DNA from: Thermaerobacter marianensis DSM 12885
GTDB lineage: Bacteria; Bacillota; Sulfobacillia; Thermaerobacterales; Thermaerobacteraceae
Assembly (NCBI RefSeq): GCF_000184705.1
Contig: NC_014831.1
Location: forward strand, 1,674,001-1,738,000
DNA length: 64,000 nucleotides
Reading direction: 5' to 3'
In this document: in pieces, positions 56,184 through 62,568 of the stretch
Layout: each line of letters opens with the position of its first letter
Numbering within the stretch: the stretch's first letter is position 1
Program-made: the position numbers and the translations under genes
Notes under the pieces: generated by a model
The model's database searches: none
What the model saw: only the letters and a program-made list of their open reading frames with translations
Told to the model about the DNA's origin: nothing

Positions 56184-57143
56184 TCACCGCCCCAGCACGT
56201 CCCGCAGGGCCGGTTCCACCTCGGGGAAGCGGAAGACGAAGCCCTCCGCCAGGGCCCGCCGCGGCACGGCCCGCTGGCCGCTGAGCAGCAGGGCGTCGGC
56301 CATCTCCCCCAGCGCCAGGCGCAGGGCGAAGGCCGGGGCCGGGAGCCACGCGGGCCGCCCGAGGACCTTCCCCAGCACCCGGGCGAAGTCCCGGTTGGTG
56401 ACGGGATGGGGCGCGGTGCCGTTGAAGGGGCCCTCCTGCCCCTCGGCCGCGAGCAGAAAGCGGATGAGCCCCACCAGGTCGTCCACGTGGATCCAGGGCA
56501 CCCACTGGCGGCCCGACCCCAGGGGTCCGCCGGCGCCCAGCCGGAAGGGAAGAACCAGCCGCGGCAGGGCGCCGCCCTCCCGGGCCAGAACCAGCCCCGT
56601 GCGCACCAGGGCGACGCGGACGCCCGCCTCCTCGGCCTTTCGGGCCTCGGCCTCCCAGGCCACGCAGACCCGGCTGAGGAAGTCCGTTCCCGGGGGCGCC
56701 GTTTCGTCGATGGCCTCGTCGCCCCGCGGCCCGTAGTAGCCCACGGCCGATCCGCTGACCAGCACGGCGGGTTTGCGCCGGGCCGCGGCGATGGCCTGGA
56801 CCAGCGCCCGGGTGGCCTGGAGCCGGCTCTGCAGGATCCGCTCCTTCTGCCGGGGCGTCCAGCGACCGGCGGCGATGGACTCGCCGGCCAGGTTCACCAC
56901 GGCGCCGGCGCCTTCAACGGCTTCCCACCAGGCGGGTTCGGGTTCGCCGGGGCCGGCGGGAGCCGCCGTCCAGGTGACCCGGCGCAGATGCCCGGGCCCG
57001 GCCGCTTCCGGGCCGCCTCCGCCGGCGGCCGTCCCCGGTGACCGGGTCAGGACCACGACTTCATGGCCGTCTTCCAGCAGGCGGTGGGCCAGGGCCGATC
57101 CGATCAGGCCGGTTCCTCCACCGATCACGACCCGCACGGCCAT
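56184..57143 (-). CDS. TIGR01777-type NAD-dependent epimerase/dehydratase-like protein
   Basis: An atypical short-chain dehydrogenase of the YfcH/Slr1223 group, whose reaction is not known. N-terminal nucleotide-binding GGGTGLIGSALAHRL, then VVNLAGESIAAGRWTPRQKERILQSR, SGSAVGYYGPRGDE (catalytic Y..K replaced by the family form), VPWIHVDDLVGLIRFLL and a C-terminal DUF1731 segment (LRLALGEMADALLLSGQRAVP). 319 residues. It converges on the RlmI-like gene. Confidence 0.9.
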   Translation of the reverse strand: MAVRVVIGGGTGLIGSALAHRLLEDGHEVVVLTRSPGTAAGGGGPEAAGPGHLRRVTWTAAPAGPGEPEPAWWEAVEGAGAVVNLAGESIAAGRWTPRQKERILQSRLQATRALVQAIAAARRKPAVLVSGSAVGYYGPRGDEAIDETAPPGTDFLSRVCVAWEAEARKAEEAGVRVALVRTGLVLAREGGALPRLVLPFRLGAGGPLGSGRQWVPWIHVDDLVGLIRFLLAAEGQEGPFNGTAPHPVTNRDFARVLGKVLGRPAWLPAPAFALRLALGEMADALLLSGQRAVPRRALAEGFVFRFPEVEPALRDVLGR

Positions 57144-57309
57144 CCCCCCTTATGGACGCGGTCGAGCCGCCGCTCCCGCGCGGGTGCCCGATGAGAATGG
57201 CACATCCTGACAATTCGTCGGCACCGGGGCAAGGCCCTGCCGCGGCCACCGCAGGGCCCTACCGGCCCCGGCGATCCGCACGGGTTAATCAAACTTTTTA
57301 ATTTTCAAC

Positions 57310-57338
57310 TTGACATTGTTCATCAAGCCGTGCCATGA
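57310..57338 (+). promoter_or_regulatory. Promoter of the MFS-DUF2089-DUF4097 operon
   Basis: TTGACA (57310-57315), 17-18 bases, CATGAT around 57333-57339. It lies in an AT-rich island from about 57284 that contrasts strongly with its surroundings. The island is flanked by GCACGG (57278-57283) and CCGTGC, and TTGA...TCAA overlaps the -35, hinting at a repressor site. Confidence 0.6.
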
Positions 57339-57375
57339 TCGTCGCGTAACCCGTTGGTTCCGAGGAGGAGCTCCC

Positions 57376-59010
57376 GTGACCGACACCGCCATGGGCAGCC
57401 CGGCATCCCGTGAGGTCGCCGCCCCCGTCCCGCCCGCCGCACCCGGGTCCGGCCCCGCCGCGTCGACGGCGGCCGGCAGTGCCGGGAGTGCGGACGCGGT
57501 CGCCAACGGCTTCGCCCCGGGTCCGGGCGGCCGTGCTGCGGGGGACCCGATCCCCGGCGCCGCAGGCATGCCTGCTCCCGTCCCCTCCCTCTGGCGGCAT
57601 CGCCCCTTCGCCGTCCTGTGGCTCGCCCGCGTGGTCTCCGTGGCCGGCGGAATGGCCAGCATGATCGCCATCCAGTGGTGGGTCCTTGACACCACCGGCT
57701 CCGCCCAGTGGATGGCCACCGTCAACGCCGTGGCCACCCTGGTGATGGCCCTGGTCGGGATTCCGGCCGGCGTGCTCGTCGACCGGTGGCACCGGGGCCG
57801 ATTCTTCCTGGTGCTGGAGGCCGGTCGCGGGGCGGTGATGGCGGCGCTGGCGGCGCTGCTCTTCAGCGGCCACGCCACGTTCCCCGTGGTGCTGGTGCTC
57901 CTGGCGGTGGACGCCGCGGGCCTGGCCCTCTTCATGCCCCTGAGCAGCGCCATCTGGCCCGAGCTGGTTCCTCCGCAGCAACTGGCGGCGGCCAACGGCC
58001 TGGTGGCCACCGGCGAGAGTACGGGGCGGATCCTGGGGCCGGCCATCGGGGGCCTGCTGGCCAGCCGGCATCCGGGCTGGGCGATTCTGGCCAACGCGGT
58101 GTCCTACGCCTGTTCCGCCGCCGCCGTCGTGGCCGCCGGTGCCCTGGGCTGGAAGGCACCCCGGGGCCGCGTCCCGGACCCGGGCGACCGCACCGCCACG
58201 GAGGGGGCCGCCGGCGTCGGGGACCCGGCCGGGCGTCGCTCCCCGAGCCGAGAACAGGACGGCACCGCGGTGCCCGGCGGGCCGGGCGACAGCGCCGGGG
58301 ACGGATCCACCGCCGGCGAGCGGATCCCGGCCACGGCCCGGGGTGGGTCCTTCGTCGCCCAGTTCCGCGAGGGGTGGGCGGCCGTCTTCGGCCGGCCCGA
58401 CCTCGGCCCGTTCTTCCTTCTGGTCTCGGTGCTCAACCTGGTGTTCAGCGCCTCCTTCGTGCTGATCCCCGTGGTGGTGCGGGAGGTGCTGCGCGGCGGC
58501 CCCGAGGCCCTGGGATGGCTCCAGGCGGCCTTTGCCGTGGGGGCGGTGACCGGCGGGCTTCTGGCGGGTTCCGGGCGGGTGCCCCGGCGATCCCGGAGCT
58601 GGGTGCTGCTGGTCCTGTTCCAGGCGGGGCTGGCCGTCATCGTCGGCGCCAGCCGGTGGCTGGCCACCAGCATCCTCGCCGGATGGGCCTTTGGGCTGAT
58701 CAACACGCTGGTCAACGTGGCGGTGACCACCATGCTGCAGGAGGCGGTGGCCCCCGCCCTGCGGGGGCGGGTGTTCGGGCTGCTCTTCACCGTGGCCATG
58801 ATCCTGCAACCCCTGGGTCAAATGACCGGCGGCATGCTGGCCGACCGCGTCCCGGTCCCCAGCATCTTCACGGCGACCGCCCTGTCGACGGTGATGGTGA
58901 TGGCCGTGGCGTGGTGGCGGGCTCCCGCCATGCGGGCCTTGCTGGACCGGCCGCACCGGGATGCAGGGCGGCGGCCGCCGGCACCGGCCGGGGAGGTGAG
59001 CACGGGATGA
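57376..59010 (+). CDS. Major facilitator superfamily exporter (MFS_3/EntS-like)
   Basis: A 544-residue transporter with about twelve hydrophobic helices, starting with FAVLWLARVVSVAGGMASMIAIQWWVLD and the first-loop GIPAGVLVDRWHRGR motif of macrolide/siderophore-type MFS_3 exporters. A 70-residue Ala/Gly/Pro N-terminal segment precedes the first helix. Between helices 6 and 7 is a hydrophilic Gly/Asp/Arg-rich loop (about 255-315), longer than usual. GTG 57376 follows GGAGGAG. Its stop overlaps the DUF2089 start as ATGA. Confidence 0.9.
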   Translation: MTDTAMGSPASREVAAPVPPAAPGSGPAASTAAGSAGSADAVANGFAPGPGGRAAGDPIPGAAGMPAPVPSLWRHRPFAVLWLARVVSVAGGMASMIAIQWWVLDTTGSAQWMATVNAVATLVMALVGIPAGVLVDRWHRGRFFLVLEAGRGAVMAALAALLFSGHATFPVVLVLLAVDAAGLALFMPLSSAIWPELVPPQQLAAANGLVATGESTGRILGPAIGGLLASRHPGWAILANAVSYACSAAAVVAAGALGWKAPRGRVPDPGDRTATEGAAGVGDPAGRRSPSREQDGTAVPGGPGDSAGDGSTAGERIPATARGGSFVAQFREGWAAVFGRPDLGPFFLLVSVLNLVFSASFVLIPVVVREVLRGGPEALGWLQAAFAVGAVTGGLLAGSGRVPRRSRSWVLLVLFQAGLAVIVGASRWLATSILAGWAFGLINTLVNVAVTTMLQEAVAPALRGRVFGLLFTVAMILQPLGQMTGGMLADRVPVPSIFTATALSTVMVMAVAWWRAPAMRALLDRPHRDAGRRPPAPAGEVSTG

Positions 59011-59489
59011 CGGCCCCTTTCGAAGTTCCGGCCCGCTGCCCGAACTGCGGCAGCGTCCTGGAGGTCCGCGAGGTCGTGTGCGGGGCCTGCGACACCCAGA
59101 TCCGCGCCCACTACCACCTGAGCCCCTTCGACCTGCTGGATCCCGAGCAGCGGCGGTTCGCCCTGCTGTTCCTGCGGGCGGCGGGCAACCTGCGGGAGAT
59201 GGAGCGCCTGCTGGGCGTCTCCTATCCGACGGTACGCAAGAAGCTGGACGAGATCATCGAGGCGCTGGGTGGACCGGCGGCGACATCGGAACCAGACGCC
59301 GGCTCATCCGGCAGCGGGACACCCGCCGGCCCCCGACAGGCCATCCTCGAACGGGTGCGCCGGGGCGAGCTGTCGGTGGATGAGGCGCTGGCCCTTCTGG
59401 GCCGGTTGGAGTCGGGGGATGAGGAGCCCCGGCCCGACGGGGCCCGCCGGTCCCCGGGCCACCGTGAGCGGGAGGAGGCGAGGGGATGA
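59007..59489 (+). CDS. DUF2089 family protein: zinc ribbon, helix-turn-helix and SHOCT-like tail
   Basis: A 160-residue probable regulator. The N-terminal zinc ribbon is held by Cys11, 14, 25 and 28 (RCPNCGSVLEVREVVCGAC). The family text LSPFDLLDPEQRRFALLFLRAAGNLREMERLLGVSYPTVRKKLDEI contains a helix-turn-helix. The C-terminal module RQAILERVRRGELSVDEALALLGRLE repeats a pattern found at the end of the next gene's product. ATG 59007 overlaps the exporter stop, and its own stop overlaps the next start, so all three are co-translated. It may regulate its own operon. Confidence 0.9.
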   Translation: MTAPFEVPARCPNCGSVLEVREVVCGACDTQIRAHYHLSPFDLLDPEQRRFALLFLRAAGNLREMERLLGVSYPTVRKKLDEIIEALGGPAATSEPDAGSSGSGTPAGPRQAILERVRRGELSVDEALALLGRLESGDEEPRPDGARRSPGHREREEARG

Positions 59490-60733
59490 GGGCGGCGGAA
59501 GCGAACCGGACGTGGCCCGCGGCGGGGATCCGGCGGGTGGAGATTCGTGGCGGGCGGCTGGCGGTACGGGTTCGTCCGGGAGACCGGCTGACCTGGGACG
59601 GGCCGCCGTCGGTGGAGGCGGAGCAGGAGGGGTCCAGTCTGGTCCTCCGCACGCCCCATCACCGCCGGTGGGGCGGCTGGATCGGCCCCGAGGATACGCT
59701 GGTCCTCACCCTGCCTCCCACGGTCACGTCCCTGTCCGTGCGGTCCACGGGCGACATGGACATCCGGGACCTCGATCTCGAGGCCGACCTCCACCTGCGG
59801 GCGGGCGACCTGCGGGCCTCGGGCTGCCGCGGGCGGTGGCGGATCCGCAGCGGGGCGGGCGACGTGACCCTGGTCGACCAGCAAGGTGACCTGGACGTGC
59901 AGACGGGCGCCGGCAAGGTCACGGTGCGGGGCGGGCACCTGCGGCGGGCCCGGATCCGCACCGGCGCGGGGGACGTCCAGTTCGCGACGTGGGTGGACGT
60001 CGAAGCCGAGGTGACCACCGGCGCCGGGTCCGTCGACCTGCGCCCCCGCCACCCCGGTGGCGCCCGTATCCAGGCGCGGTCGGGGTTCGGCAGCGTGGTC
60101 CTCGACCTGAGCGGTGTGCGGGGAGGGCGCATGGAGCTGCAGACGGGTGCCGGCCACATCCACCTTCCGGGCGGCATCCACGTGGGGCGGCGGGGCGGCC
60201 TGGGTCAGCGCGTCGTCGACGTCCTGGGCCCGGGCGAGGGGGTGATCGAGATCACCACGGGGGCAGGCAGCGTCCGCGTCGTGGGCTACGGTACCCAGCC
60301 CTGGGGCGCCCATCGAGCCGCCTACGGTGCCGTCGCCGGTGCCGGTGACGGCCGGGGTGCCCGTGCCGGTTCCGATTCGGGTGGCAGCACCGGCGCCGGG
60401 ACCGAGGCCGGCGCCGGCCTCGGTCCCGGCGCCAGTCCCGCGGCAGCACAGGAGATTTCCCGCGGGCACTGGGTGGCCGAATCGCCGGGCGCCGTCTACG
60501 GCGCGTCGGGGGGAGCGGCACAGGCTCCACCCCAGGCGGCACCGCAAGCCGGCGTCTCCGGGCCTTACCGCGATGCCCGGCAGGTGCTCGAGGCCCTGGC
60601 CCGGGGTGAGCTGACCGTGGAAGAAGCCGACCGCTGGCTGAGGGCCCTTGAAACCGCCGCGCCGCCACCTCTGCCCAAGGTGGAAGGCGAAACGGAGCCC
60701 GATCCCGGGAAGGACGCACCCCCGGGCCGGTGA
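59486..60733 (+). CDS. DUF4097 beta-helix-like protein with SHOCT-like C-terminal module
   Basis: A 415-residue protein. Residues 10-270 form repeated short beta strands with Gly-Ala/Gly-Ser turns (SGAGDVTL, TGAGKVTV, TGAGDVQF, TGAGSVDL, TGAGHIHL, TGAGSVRV at about 20-residue spacing), typical of the DUF4097 parallel beta-helix fold. A Gly/Ala/Pro linker follows. At about 360-390 DARQVLEALARGELTVEEADRWLRALE closely mirrors the C-terminal module of the DUF2089 protein. There is no signal peptide or membrane helix. DUF2089 and DUF4097 often travel together (as in B. subtilis YvlB-type loci) and are linked to envelope stress by association only. Confidence 0.88.
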   Translation: MRAAEANRTWPAAGIRRVEIRGGRLAVRVRPGDRLTWDGPPSVEAEQEGSSLVLRTPHHRRWGGWIGPEDTLVLTLPPTVTSLSVRSTGDMDIRDLDLEADLHLRAGDLRASGCRGRWRIRSGAGDVTLVDQQGDLDVQTGAGKVTVRGGHLRRARIRTGAGDVQFATWVDVEAEVTTGAGSVDLRPRHPGGARIQARSGFGSVVLDLSGVRGGRMELQTGAGHIHLPGGIHVGRRGGLGQRVVDVLGPGEGVIEITTGAGSVRVVGYGTQPWGAHRAAYGAVAGAGDGRGARAGSDSGGSTGAGTEAGAGLGPGASPAAAQEISRGHWVAESPGAVYGASGGAAQAPPQAAPQAGVSGPYRDARQVLEALARGELTVEEADRWLRALETAAPPPLPKVEGETEPDPGKDAPPGR

Positions 60734-60930
60734 CCCTTCCGGGCCGCGCCGGGACCACCGGGCGCCGGGCCGGCCCACCGGCAAGGCACGGCCTGACGAG
60801 GGACCCGGCAGGTACCGTGCATACGCCTGGAAGACCGTGGGCACCTTGGAACCGGCGCCCCGCCCCGGCGCAGCCGGCGGCCGGGTCCCTCCGGACCGGC
60901 CGGCGGCGGGGCGCGGGGAGGGTGCGTCCC

Positions 60931-61296
60931 GTGCACGTGTTCATCTTCGACCCGGCGACCACCACCTGGCACTACGGCTACCTTCCCGGTGCCTCCCAAG
61001 CCCCCACTCAAGGGACCTTGCGCCCGGTCAGTGCGGCCTTGTGGTTCGGCATCGTGCTGTCGCTGCTGCGAGGAACCGGTCATGCCCTTCCGTCCGTCCC
61101 GTCGGGTGACACGGCGTCGGTGCTGGTGAGCTGGGACCGGGAAGGCAACGCCTCCGTCTTTCCCCTGGGGAAGAACGCGGCCGACCGCTGGACGGAACTG
61201 GGCCATGTCCTGCACCGGGTGGCCCAGTCGCTCATCGAGGATCCCGAAGCCTGGGAGACGGTGGTCATCGAGCCGGAAGGCAACGGGAAGGGTTAG
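60931..61296 (+). CDS. Hypothetical protein, 121 residues
   Basis: I do not recognise it. GTG 60931 has GGAGGG eight bases upstream. It starts VHVFIFDPATTTWHYGYLPG, has a short hydrophobic stretch (ALWFGIVLSLL, about 42-52) and an acidic end. Codon use is like its neighbours. It lies about 200 bases after the DUF4097 gene in the same direction and could share its transcript. Confidence 0.65.
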   Translation: MHVFIFDPATTTWHYGYLPGASQAPTQGTLRPVSAALWFGIVLSLLRGTGHALPSVPSGDTASVLVSWDREGNASVFPLGKNAADRWTELGHVLHRVAQSLIEDPEAWETVVIEPEGNGKG

Positions 61297-61371
61297 CCTC
61301 GCGGCCGGTACCGGGCCCGTGCGACCCCGACGTTCGGTCTCGGCAACATGCCCGGCGCGTGCCCGGTGCGT

Positions 61372-61857
61372 TCATTCCTGGCAGCAAGCCCCGCCACCGG
61401 TGGCCGGCGACAGCCCCAGCTGCGCCCGGGCCTCCGCCAGCAGCGCGGGCACCTGCGGGATGCAGGGGCATTCCCTCAGGATTTCCGTCAACCAGAACGC
61501 TGCCTCGGCCCACTGCTCGCGGCGCATGGCCATCTCCGCCCGGTCGAAGTAGGCGTACACGGGGTGGACGGTCACCCGTAGCTGGGACCGTCCACCCCGG
61601 CCAGGCTGGGGCTTCCACGCCACCAGGCCCCAGCTCGCGAGACGACGCAGCACCTGCTGGGCCGCCCGGCGGGAACATCCCCACATCCCGGCCAGTTCGT
61701 CCACCGTCACCAGTACGCCGCCGTACGGCTCCCCGCCGGTGCCACCGTTGCCGGAGGCATCCCCCTCCGCACTGCGCTGGCGCACCCAGTGCGCCAGTTC
61801 GATGAACCGCTTGAGCAGCAGCCCGGCTTCACGGGTTTTGAGCGCGGGGGTCTTCAT
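61372..61857 (-). CDS. Winged-helix protein with SgrR N-terminal-like domain
   Basis: A 161-residue probable DNA-binding regulator. Residues 47-97 match the winged-helix of SgrR-type regulators: LVTVDELAGMWGCSRRAAQQVLRRL followed by WGLVAWKPQPGRGGRSQL. The last third is helical with YFDRAEMAMRREQWAEAAFWL and holds cysteines in RECPCIPQ and a terminal GGGACCQE. It has none of the solute-binding domain that makes up the rest of SgrR. ATG 61857 is 3 bases after the arsI stop, so it is co-transcribed. The cysteines would suit a metalloid sensor; that is inference. It is not an ArsR protein by sequence. Confidence 0.75.
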   Translation of the reverse strand: MKTPALKTREAGLLLKRFIELAHWVRQRSAEGDASGNGGTGGEPYGGVLVTVDELAGMWGCSRRAAQQVLRRLASWGLVAWKPQPGRGGRSQLRVTVHPVYAYFDRAEMAMRREQWAEAAFWLTEILRECPCIPQVPALLAEARAQLGLSPATGGGACCQE

Positions 61858-61860
61858 GGC

Positions 61861-62412
61861 TTATCCCGCGCAGCACTCCGCGCAACACGCTGGCGCCCCT
61901 GCCGGCTCACAGCAGCCAGGTTCGTTCGCTTCCTCCCCCGGCGCCGGACCCTGGTTTGGCCCGTGAATAGGCCCCCCACCGCCGTTCCTATGTGTGGCTT
62001 CGTGGCCGGTCTTGCCGGGACTGCCGTGGCGACGGGAGACGAAGAAGACCTCCCAACGGTGGCCATCGGGATCGACCACCCAGAACTTGTCCTGCCTGGA
62101 GTAGCAGCAGAGGGTGTCCTCCTCGACAGTCGCCGCAAGACCACCGTCCCGCACCCGTTCCAGGGCAGACCGAACCTCCGTGACCGATTCCACCTCAATC
62201 CCAAAGTGGTGCGTTGAGGTCGCCGACCCTGCCGCGGACCCGGGTTCCTTCGCCGGACCAGCCTGGGTCAAGGCAAGGTTCAGGCCCGGATTATCGAGGA
62301 GGAACTGGGCGTAGCCCGGTAGCATCCGGGCAGGGGGCTTGCCAAAGAAGCGTTCGTAGAACCGGACCGACGCCGGAAGATCGGAGACGGGCAGGGCGAT
62401 GTGTACGCGCAT
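61861..62412 (-). CDS. arsI: ArsI/CadI family C-As lyase with Cys-rich tail
   Basis: A VOC-fold dioxygenase that cleaves the carbon-arsenic bond of trivalent organoarsenicals. The iron ligands expected of ArsI are at His4 (RVHIALPV), His69 (THHFGIEV) and Glu121 (RWEVFF). The arsenic-binding cysteine pair Cys102-103 sits in EDTLCCYSRQDKFWVVDPDG. The C-terminal tail has six more cysteines in three pairs (CCEP..ACCAECCAG), as in many ArsI/CadI members. ATG 62412 follows GGAGGTGATC; 183 residues. arsM, arsP and arsR are not adjacent. Confidence 0.92.
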   Translation of the reverse strand: MRVHIALPVSDLPASVRFYERFFGKPPARMLPGYAQFLLDNPGLNLALTQAGPAKEPGSAAGSATSTHHFGIEVESVTEVRSALERVRDGGLAATVEEDTLCCYSRQDKFWVVDPDGHRWEVFFVSRRHGSPGKTGHEATHRNGGGGPIHGPNQGPAPGEEANEPGCCEPAGAPACCAECCAG

Positions 62413-62568
62413 GCTGATCACCTCCGGGGGATTTCTACCGCCATCGTGCACGGCCATGGCCCCGGGAAAAAGTGAGAGGTTCACCGCAAATCCCGCAAGG
62501 TTTCCTCCGCACCCTGCAGGGTCGCCTCACACTTTCCGGGGACAACCCCGCCCGCCCCGTCCCCCGGC

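Follow-up and report, generated by a model that had tools for sequence, protein, structure and literature searches.

Operons that combine a DUF2089 protein with a Toastrack (DUF4097) protein were described by Ravi et al. (2024; PMC11237479). In these operons the DUF2089 protein consists of a zinc ribbon, a helix-turn-helix (HTH) domain and a SHOCT-like domain. SHOCT-like domains were found at both ends of Toastrack proteins, and the occurrence of Toastrack in transport operons was noted generally. The Toastrack-DUF2089 operons are regarded as predicted analogues of the PSP and lia systems, membrane-stress signalling being a prediction of that study. A helical module combined with DUF4097 is also known from LiaX/YvlB of the lia response in enterococci and bacilli, where it stands in the context of envelope and antimicrobial stress (PMC10269926; PMC11237479). 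LiaX acts with LiaFSR and LiaYZ, and the lia response uses a two-component system. The classical SHOCT domain is likewise a short two-helix module, usually C-terminal, which occurs on a wide range of unrelated proteins, some of them with zinc ribbons (PMC3581485). The papers found report no tested function for SHOCT-like domains or for DUF2089.

We analyzed a locus of Thermaerobacter marianensis DSM 12885 within a window of 64,000 nucleotides, i.e., the whole stretch of DNA under study (NC_014831.1, positions 1,674,001 to 1,738,000). The positions of its features in the window are listed in Table 1. The DUF2089 and Toastrack genes lie in one operon and both products carry SHOCT-like domains, as described by Ravi et al. 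(2024). The DUF2089 architecture, the Toastrack partner and the proposed path from membrane signal to transcription are shared as well. The locus differs from those operons in that the Toastrack module is C-terminal and the gene of a predicted drug-type MFS exporter leads the operon; it also lacks the frequent extra SHOCT-like protein of some 125 aa. Compared to LiaX/YvlB, the order of the module and DUF4097 is reversed, the regulator is a DUF2089 protein instead of a two-component system, and neither LiaFSR nor LiaYZ adjoins the operon; LiaF, LiaS and LiaR were sought among the flanking genes of Toastrack and none was found. The linkage of DUF2089, Toastrack and SHOCT-like domains was already published in 2024, and the T. 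marianensis operon is an exporter-containing variant of it. Added here are the quantification, a specificity control, genomes with an unlinked pair, and the MFS variant.

Table 1. Features of the DUF2089-Toastrack operon of T. marianensis (window coordinates)
Feature	Position	Strand	Basis
MFS exporter gene, 544 aa, Mef/EntS/TIGR00900-like	57376-59010	+	Pfam MFS_1, NCBIfam TIGR00900
DUF2089 gene, 160 aa: zinc ribbon aa 11-42, HTH aa 44-88, SHOCT-like aa 109-136	59007-59489	+	Pfam, AlphaFold2
DUF4097/Toastrack beta-helix gene, 415 aa	59486-60733	+	Pfam DUF4097, AlphaFold2
SHOCT-like module of DUF2089, aa 109-136	59331-59414	+	Pfam PF22746
SHOCT-like module of Toastrack, aa 363-391	60572-60658	+	DUF2089 C-terminus HMM, AlphaFold2
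Likely promoter, TTGACA, 18-nt spacer, CATGAT, with A+T-rich patch, 5' of MFS	57310-57339	+	Motif scan, genus alignment

The initial annotation had described three genes joined by ATGA overlaps, and the gene calls as well as both junctions proved correct. The stop codon of the MFS gene (TGA, 59008-59010) overlaps the DUF2089 ATG at 59007, and the DUF2089 stop codon (59487-59489) overlaps the Toastrack ATG at 59486. All three other genomes of the genus have both overlaps, with GTGA in place of ATGA between MFS and DUF2089 in L032. A second genus of the family shares the overlap of DUF2089 with Toastrack. The MFS gene starts with GTG, preceded by GAGGAGGAG. The likely promoter is the sole sigma-70-like site in the 4.2 kb from 57150 to 61400 (mean of shuffled sequences 0.0), and its TTGAC(A/T) element lines up in all four genomes of the genus, as does the A+T-rich patch.

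Divergent from the operon, a TIGR01777 family oxidoreductase, which is YfcH/ThyD-like, is encoded at 56184-57143 (minus strand). At the other end, an open reading frame starting at 60730 was considered as a fourth overlapping gene and rejected. This start is not conserved, and since conservation is limited to the last ~124 aa, the true start is placed near 60920, without overlap with the Toastrack gene. The resulting gene (60920-61296, plus strand) has no Pfam or NCBIfam match; the last 124 aa of its product are 87-89% identical within the genus, and the identity to a second genus of the family is 71%, which exceeds the conservation of the operon proteins. A small HTH protein with a SgrR N-terminal domain (Pfam 8e-13) and weak C-terminal TPR matches is encoded at 61372-61857 on the minus strand and is transcribed toward the operon end. 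Next to it, on the same strand (61861-62484), lies the gene of an ArsI/CadI-family heavy-metal metalloenzyme (NF041414, 128 bits, cut-off 116) with the cysteine-rich tail GCCEPAGAPACCAECCAG.

For the DUF2089 protein, the Pfam models of the zinc ribbon (E 3e-11), the HTH (E 2e-21) and the SHOCT-like domain (PF22746, SHOCT-like_DUF2089-C; E 1e-6, 28.5 bits, cut-off 27, aa 110-138) are all above cut-off, and its SHOCT-like module is the single match found across the whole genome. The two CxxC pairs of the zinc ribbon (C11, C14, C25 and C28) are invariant in 64 sequences. In the AlphaFold2 model (pLDDT 85.6) the HTH matches sigma region 4 as well as the DNA-binding domains of LiaR/VraR at Z 6-7, with many tied rows, and was therefore assigned to the HTH class and nothing finer. 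The zinc ribbon and the sigma-region-4/LuxR-like HTH seen with Pfam and AlphaFold2 agree with the earlier suggestion that DUF2089 is the DNA-binding end, for which DNA binding is predicted. The Toastrack protein belongs to DUF4097 (PF13349; E 1.7e-6, 28.1 bits, cut-off 22.9). Its AlphaFold2 model shows a beta-helix fold, with 4qrk as the best PDB match and 4opw as a further one, and has a linker of low confidence around aa 280-360. Searched by sequence, neither DUF2089 nor the module had a convincing match among solved structures.

The C-terminus of Toastrack scores under the cut-off of PF22746 (16.8 bits against 27, E 0.005, aa 365-390) and was found at E 5.7e-7 by a HMM built from DUF2089 C-termini alone. 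The two modules are about 41% identical over 29 residues (z = 5.4), a score reached by none of 20,000 shuffles. Both are modelled by AlphaFold2 as a two-helix hairpin with pLDDT of about 95, comprising residues 109-118 and 124-136 in DUF2089 and 364-372 and 378-391 in Toastrack. As judged from the profile search, the shuffles and the common two-helix form, the modules are homologous and not chance helices, as had been proposed from the sequence. The same annotation had both proteins end in one motif. A related two-helix module is indeed present in both, but the leading R is one residue off register in Toastrack, and ~24 further residues follow each module, which is located near the C-terminus and not at the end. 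PF22746 is a Pfam family related to, but distinct from, the classical SHOCT family. The Pfam search reported no match to the classical SHOCT domain (PF09851). The modules are amphipathic; those of Toastracks are acidic (mean net charge -3.2 for the N-type and -3.1 for the C-type, -2 in T. marianensis) and those of DUF2089 are approximately neutral.

Modules from the same operon resemble each other no more than those from different operons do (N-type z 0.9, C-type z -2.6). A recent origin of the two modules by duplication inside the operon was therefore rejected as a general rule. In the T. marianensis family, the HMM of the DUF2089 type gives the Toastrack module a better score than the one of the N-terminal Toastrack type does, and an old transfer may have taken place.

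Among the class relatives, 48 Toastracks lie in DUF2089 neighbourhoods and 46 of them carry the module; of the 13 located elsewhere in these genomes, 2 do (Fisher p 1e-8). One of the two module-free Toastracks beside DUF2089 is cut by a contig end, and G032 was omitted from this count because its Toastrack contig resembles a continuation of its DUF2089 contig. Over 61 genomes, DUF2089 and DUF4097 occur together in 35, are both missing in 18 and occur singly in 6 and 2 (p 1e-8, the species not being independent). In the genomes G042 and G022, the DUF2089 protein (63-67% identical to that of T. marianensis) is encoded at a separate locus from Toastrack, which keeps the C-terminal module and adjoins a MFS gene. 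The MFS protein of G042 is 43-48% identical to the T. marianensis exporter and an apparent orthologue. Both DUF2089 and Toastrack are absent from G057, the third member of the same genus. The regions 5' of DUF2089 and of MFS-Toastrack in G042 and G022 showed no evident common motif when compared, no operator motif common to these promoters and those of the T. marianensis genus was seen, and no operator was recognised for the operon. Taken together, the specificity counts, the unlinked pair and the co-occurrence argue that the module marks a working DUF2089-Toastrack partnership and not merely adjacent duplicates.

The linkage extends over many phyla. The collection comprises 124 DUF2089 loci. 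Class relatives, together with the T. marianensis genome itself, supplied 44 of them, and the other 80 were taken from named GTDB records that cover Bacillota, Chloroflexota, Armatimonadota, Latescibacterota, Poribacteria, Bipolaricaulota and further groups; a few loci are present in both sources. All 124 DUF2089 proteins carry the SHOCT-like module, and in 112 of the 118 loci with room it also occurs in a gene on the same strand that lies no more than 2.5 kb downstream. Since the HMM behind the counts had been refined iteratively with these very loci, the strand and shuffle controls and not the E-values serve as the test: 318 matches lie on the coding strand and 0 on the opposite strand, and shuffled proteins give one. 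The commonest order is DUF2089 with a C-terminal module, Toastrack with an N-terminal module and the ~125-aa protein with an N-terminal module. A C-terminal module is the minority form among first-downstream Toastracks (14 vs. 63) and is also found in Sulfobacillus and Chloroflexota. The ~125-aa family (e.g., L045, L080, L085, L091, L124) is widespread and belongs to DUF2089 operons of many phyla. In it, the N-terminal SHOCT-like module is followed by a conserved domain ending like GAxGKIVDVxDE..VEIxVE, and in some Clostridia this protein is the sole SHOCT-like partner of DUF2089 seen. Second DUF2089 paralogues were observed at L069:5519-6310 and L073:737-1570 (oriented coordinates); their downstream partner has a C-terminal SHOCT-like module and no Toastrack domain recognised by HMM.

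The first gene of the T. marianensis operon encodes a MFS protein (MFS_1, E 8.9e-32) of the same sequence family as the Mef/EntS/TIGR00900-type exporters. In contrast to these, it lies under the curated cut-off of every named exporter (190 bits against 319.6 for TIGR00900; the others score lower). A MFS gene as the first overlapping gene was seen in this genus alone. In Sphaerobacter MAGs the order is DUF2089-MFS-Toastrack, with a C-terminal module on Toastrack; the MFS gene lies upstream of the operon in Sulfobacillus and downstream in others. The MFS genes near these operons are nearly all on the same strand. The MFS gene is thus seen repeatedly with these operons, but most of them lack it, with a gene nearby in about one of five to six loci, and it is an optional companion that does not belong to the core. 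A C-terminal module goes along with MFS in 7 of 14 loci against 6 of 65 (p 0.001), an association that is weak because four of the seven cases come from one genus. Natural DUF2089-Toastrack or MFS-Toastrack fusions were sought in the collected loci and none was found; a long ORF in L076 and L077 that appeared as a fusion is an overlapping frame, the MFS gene being a separate ORF.

We give roughly even chances to a cytoplasmic one-component stress operon, in which DUF2089, docked via the SHOCT-like modules to Toastrack, would control its own exporter operon. DUF2089 would be the DNA-binding part through its zinc ribbon and HTH, and its SHOCT-like hairpin would dock to that of Toastrack, directly or via a common partner. 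Toastrack may act near the membrane as a cytoplasmic beta-helix scaffold and as the sensor, DUF2089 being held by it or released from it through the modules. A change at the membrane or on Toastrack, presumably of the envelope- or drug-stress type, would be relayed to DUF2089, which may alter transcription of its own operon and thereby the amount of the MFS exporter as the output. More tentatively, the SHOCT-like hairpins could form a heterotypic docking code that connects a soluble HTH regulator to the Toastrack scaffold, whether the two are encoded together or at unlinked loci, and that is here wired to MFS as a kinase-free one-component switch for drug or envelope stress. For the classical SHOCT domain, self-association was unsupported in one published assay (PMC3581485), which counts against docking of the modules. 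The absence of fusions, of a recognised operator and, in most such operons, of MFS likewise speaks against the model. The missing similarity of cognate modules speaks neither for nor against docking, since an amphipathic hairpin of 30 residues may dock via conserved residues.

That missing similarity would also fit a common third surface. It is somewhat unlikely that each module anchors its own protein to the inner membrane face, so that HTH and Toastrack meet by location only. Membrane anchoring was proposed for SHOCT-like domains, which flank many unrelated domains on one side or the other (PMC11237479), and is consistent with the amphipathic modules, but the acidic Toastrack modules and the near-neutral DUF2089 ones mildly disfavour binding to anionic lipids, and a membrane anchor would be awkward on a DNA-binding protein unless regulated. 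Binding of the modules to a common third protein, e.g., a cytoplasmic loop of the MFS exporter or another host protein, would account for one module type on several proteins per operon, including the ~125-aa protein in relatives, and for the recurrence of MFS. We consider it unlikely, as most module-bearing loci lack MFS and no common third gene was found. Rather improbable is a MFS gene that is a functionally unrelated upstream neighbour, with DUF2089-Toastrack alone as the functional unit. The low frequency of MFS near these loci points in this direction, and the operon MFS proteins of other phyla need not be orthologous; against it stand the gene overlap kept in four species, the MFS gene adjoining Toastrack without DUF2089 in G042, its position between DUF2089 and Toastrack in Sphaerobacter, and the shared strand of nearby MFS genes.

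The DUF2089 protein of T. marianensis is small and soluble; it and Toastrack carry one module each and are probably stable. The pair would offer a clean system for distinguishing a protein-protein dock from anchoring in the membrane. Because the module goes specifically with DUF2089-linked Toastracks, unlinked genes included, docking can be tested directly.
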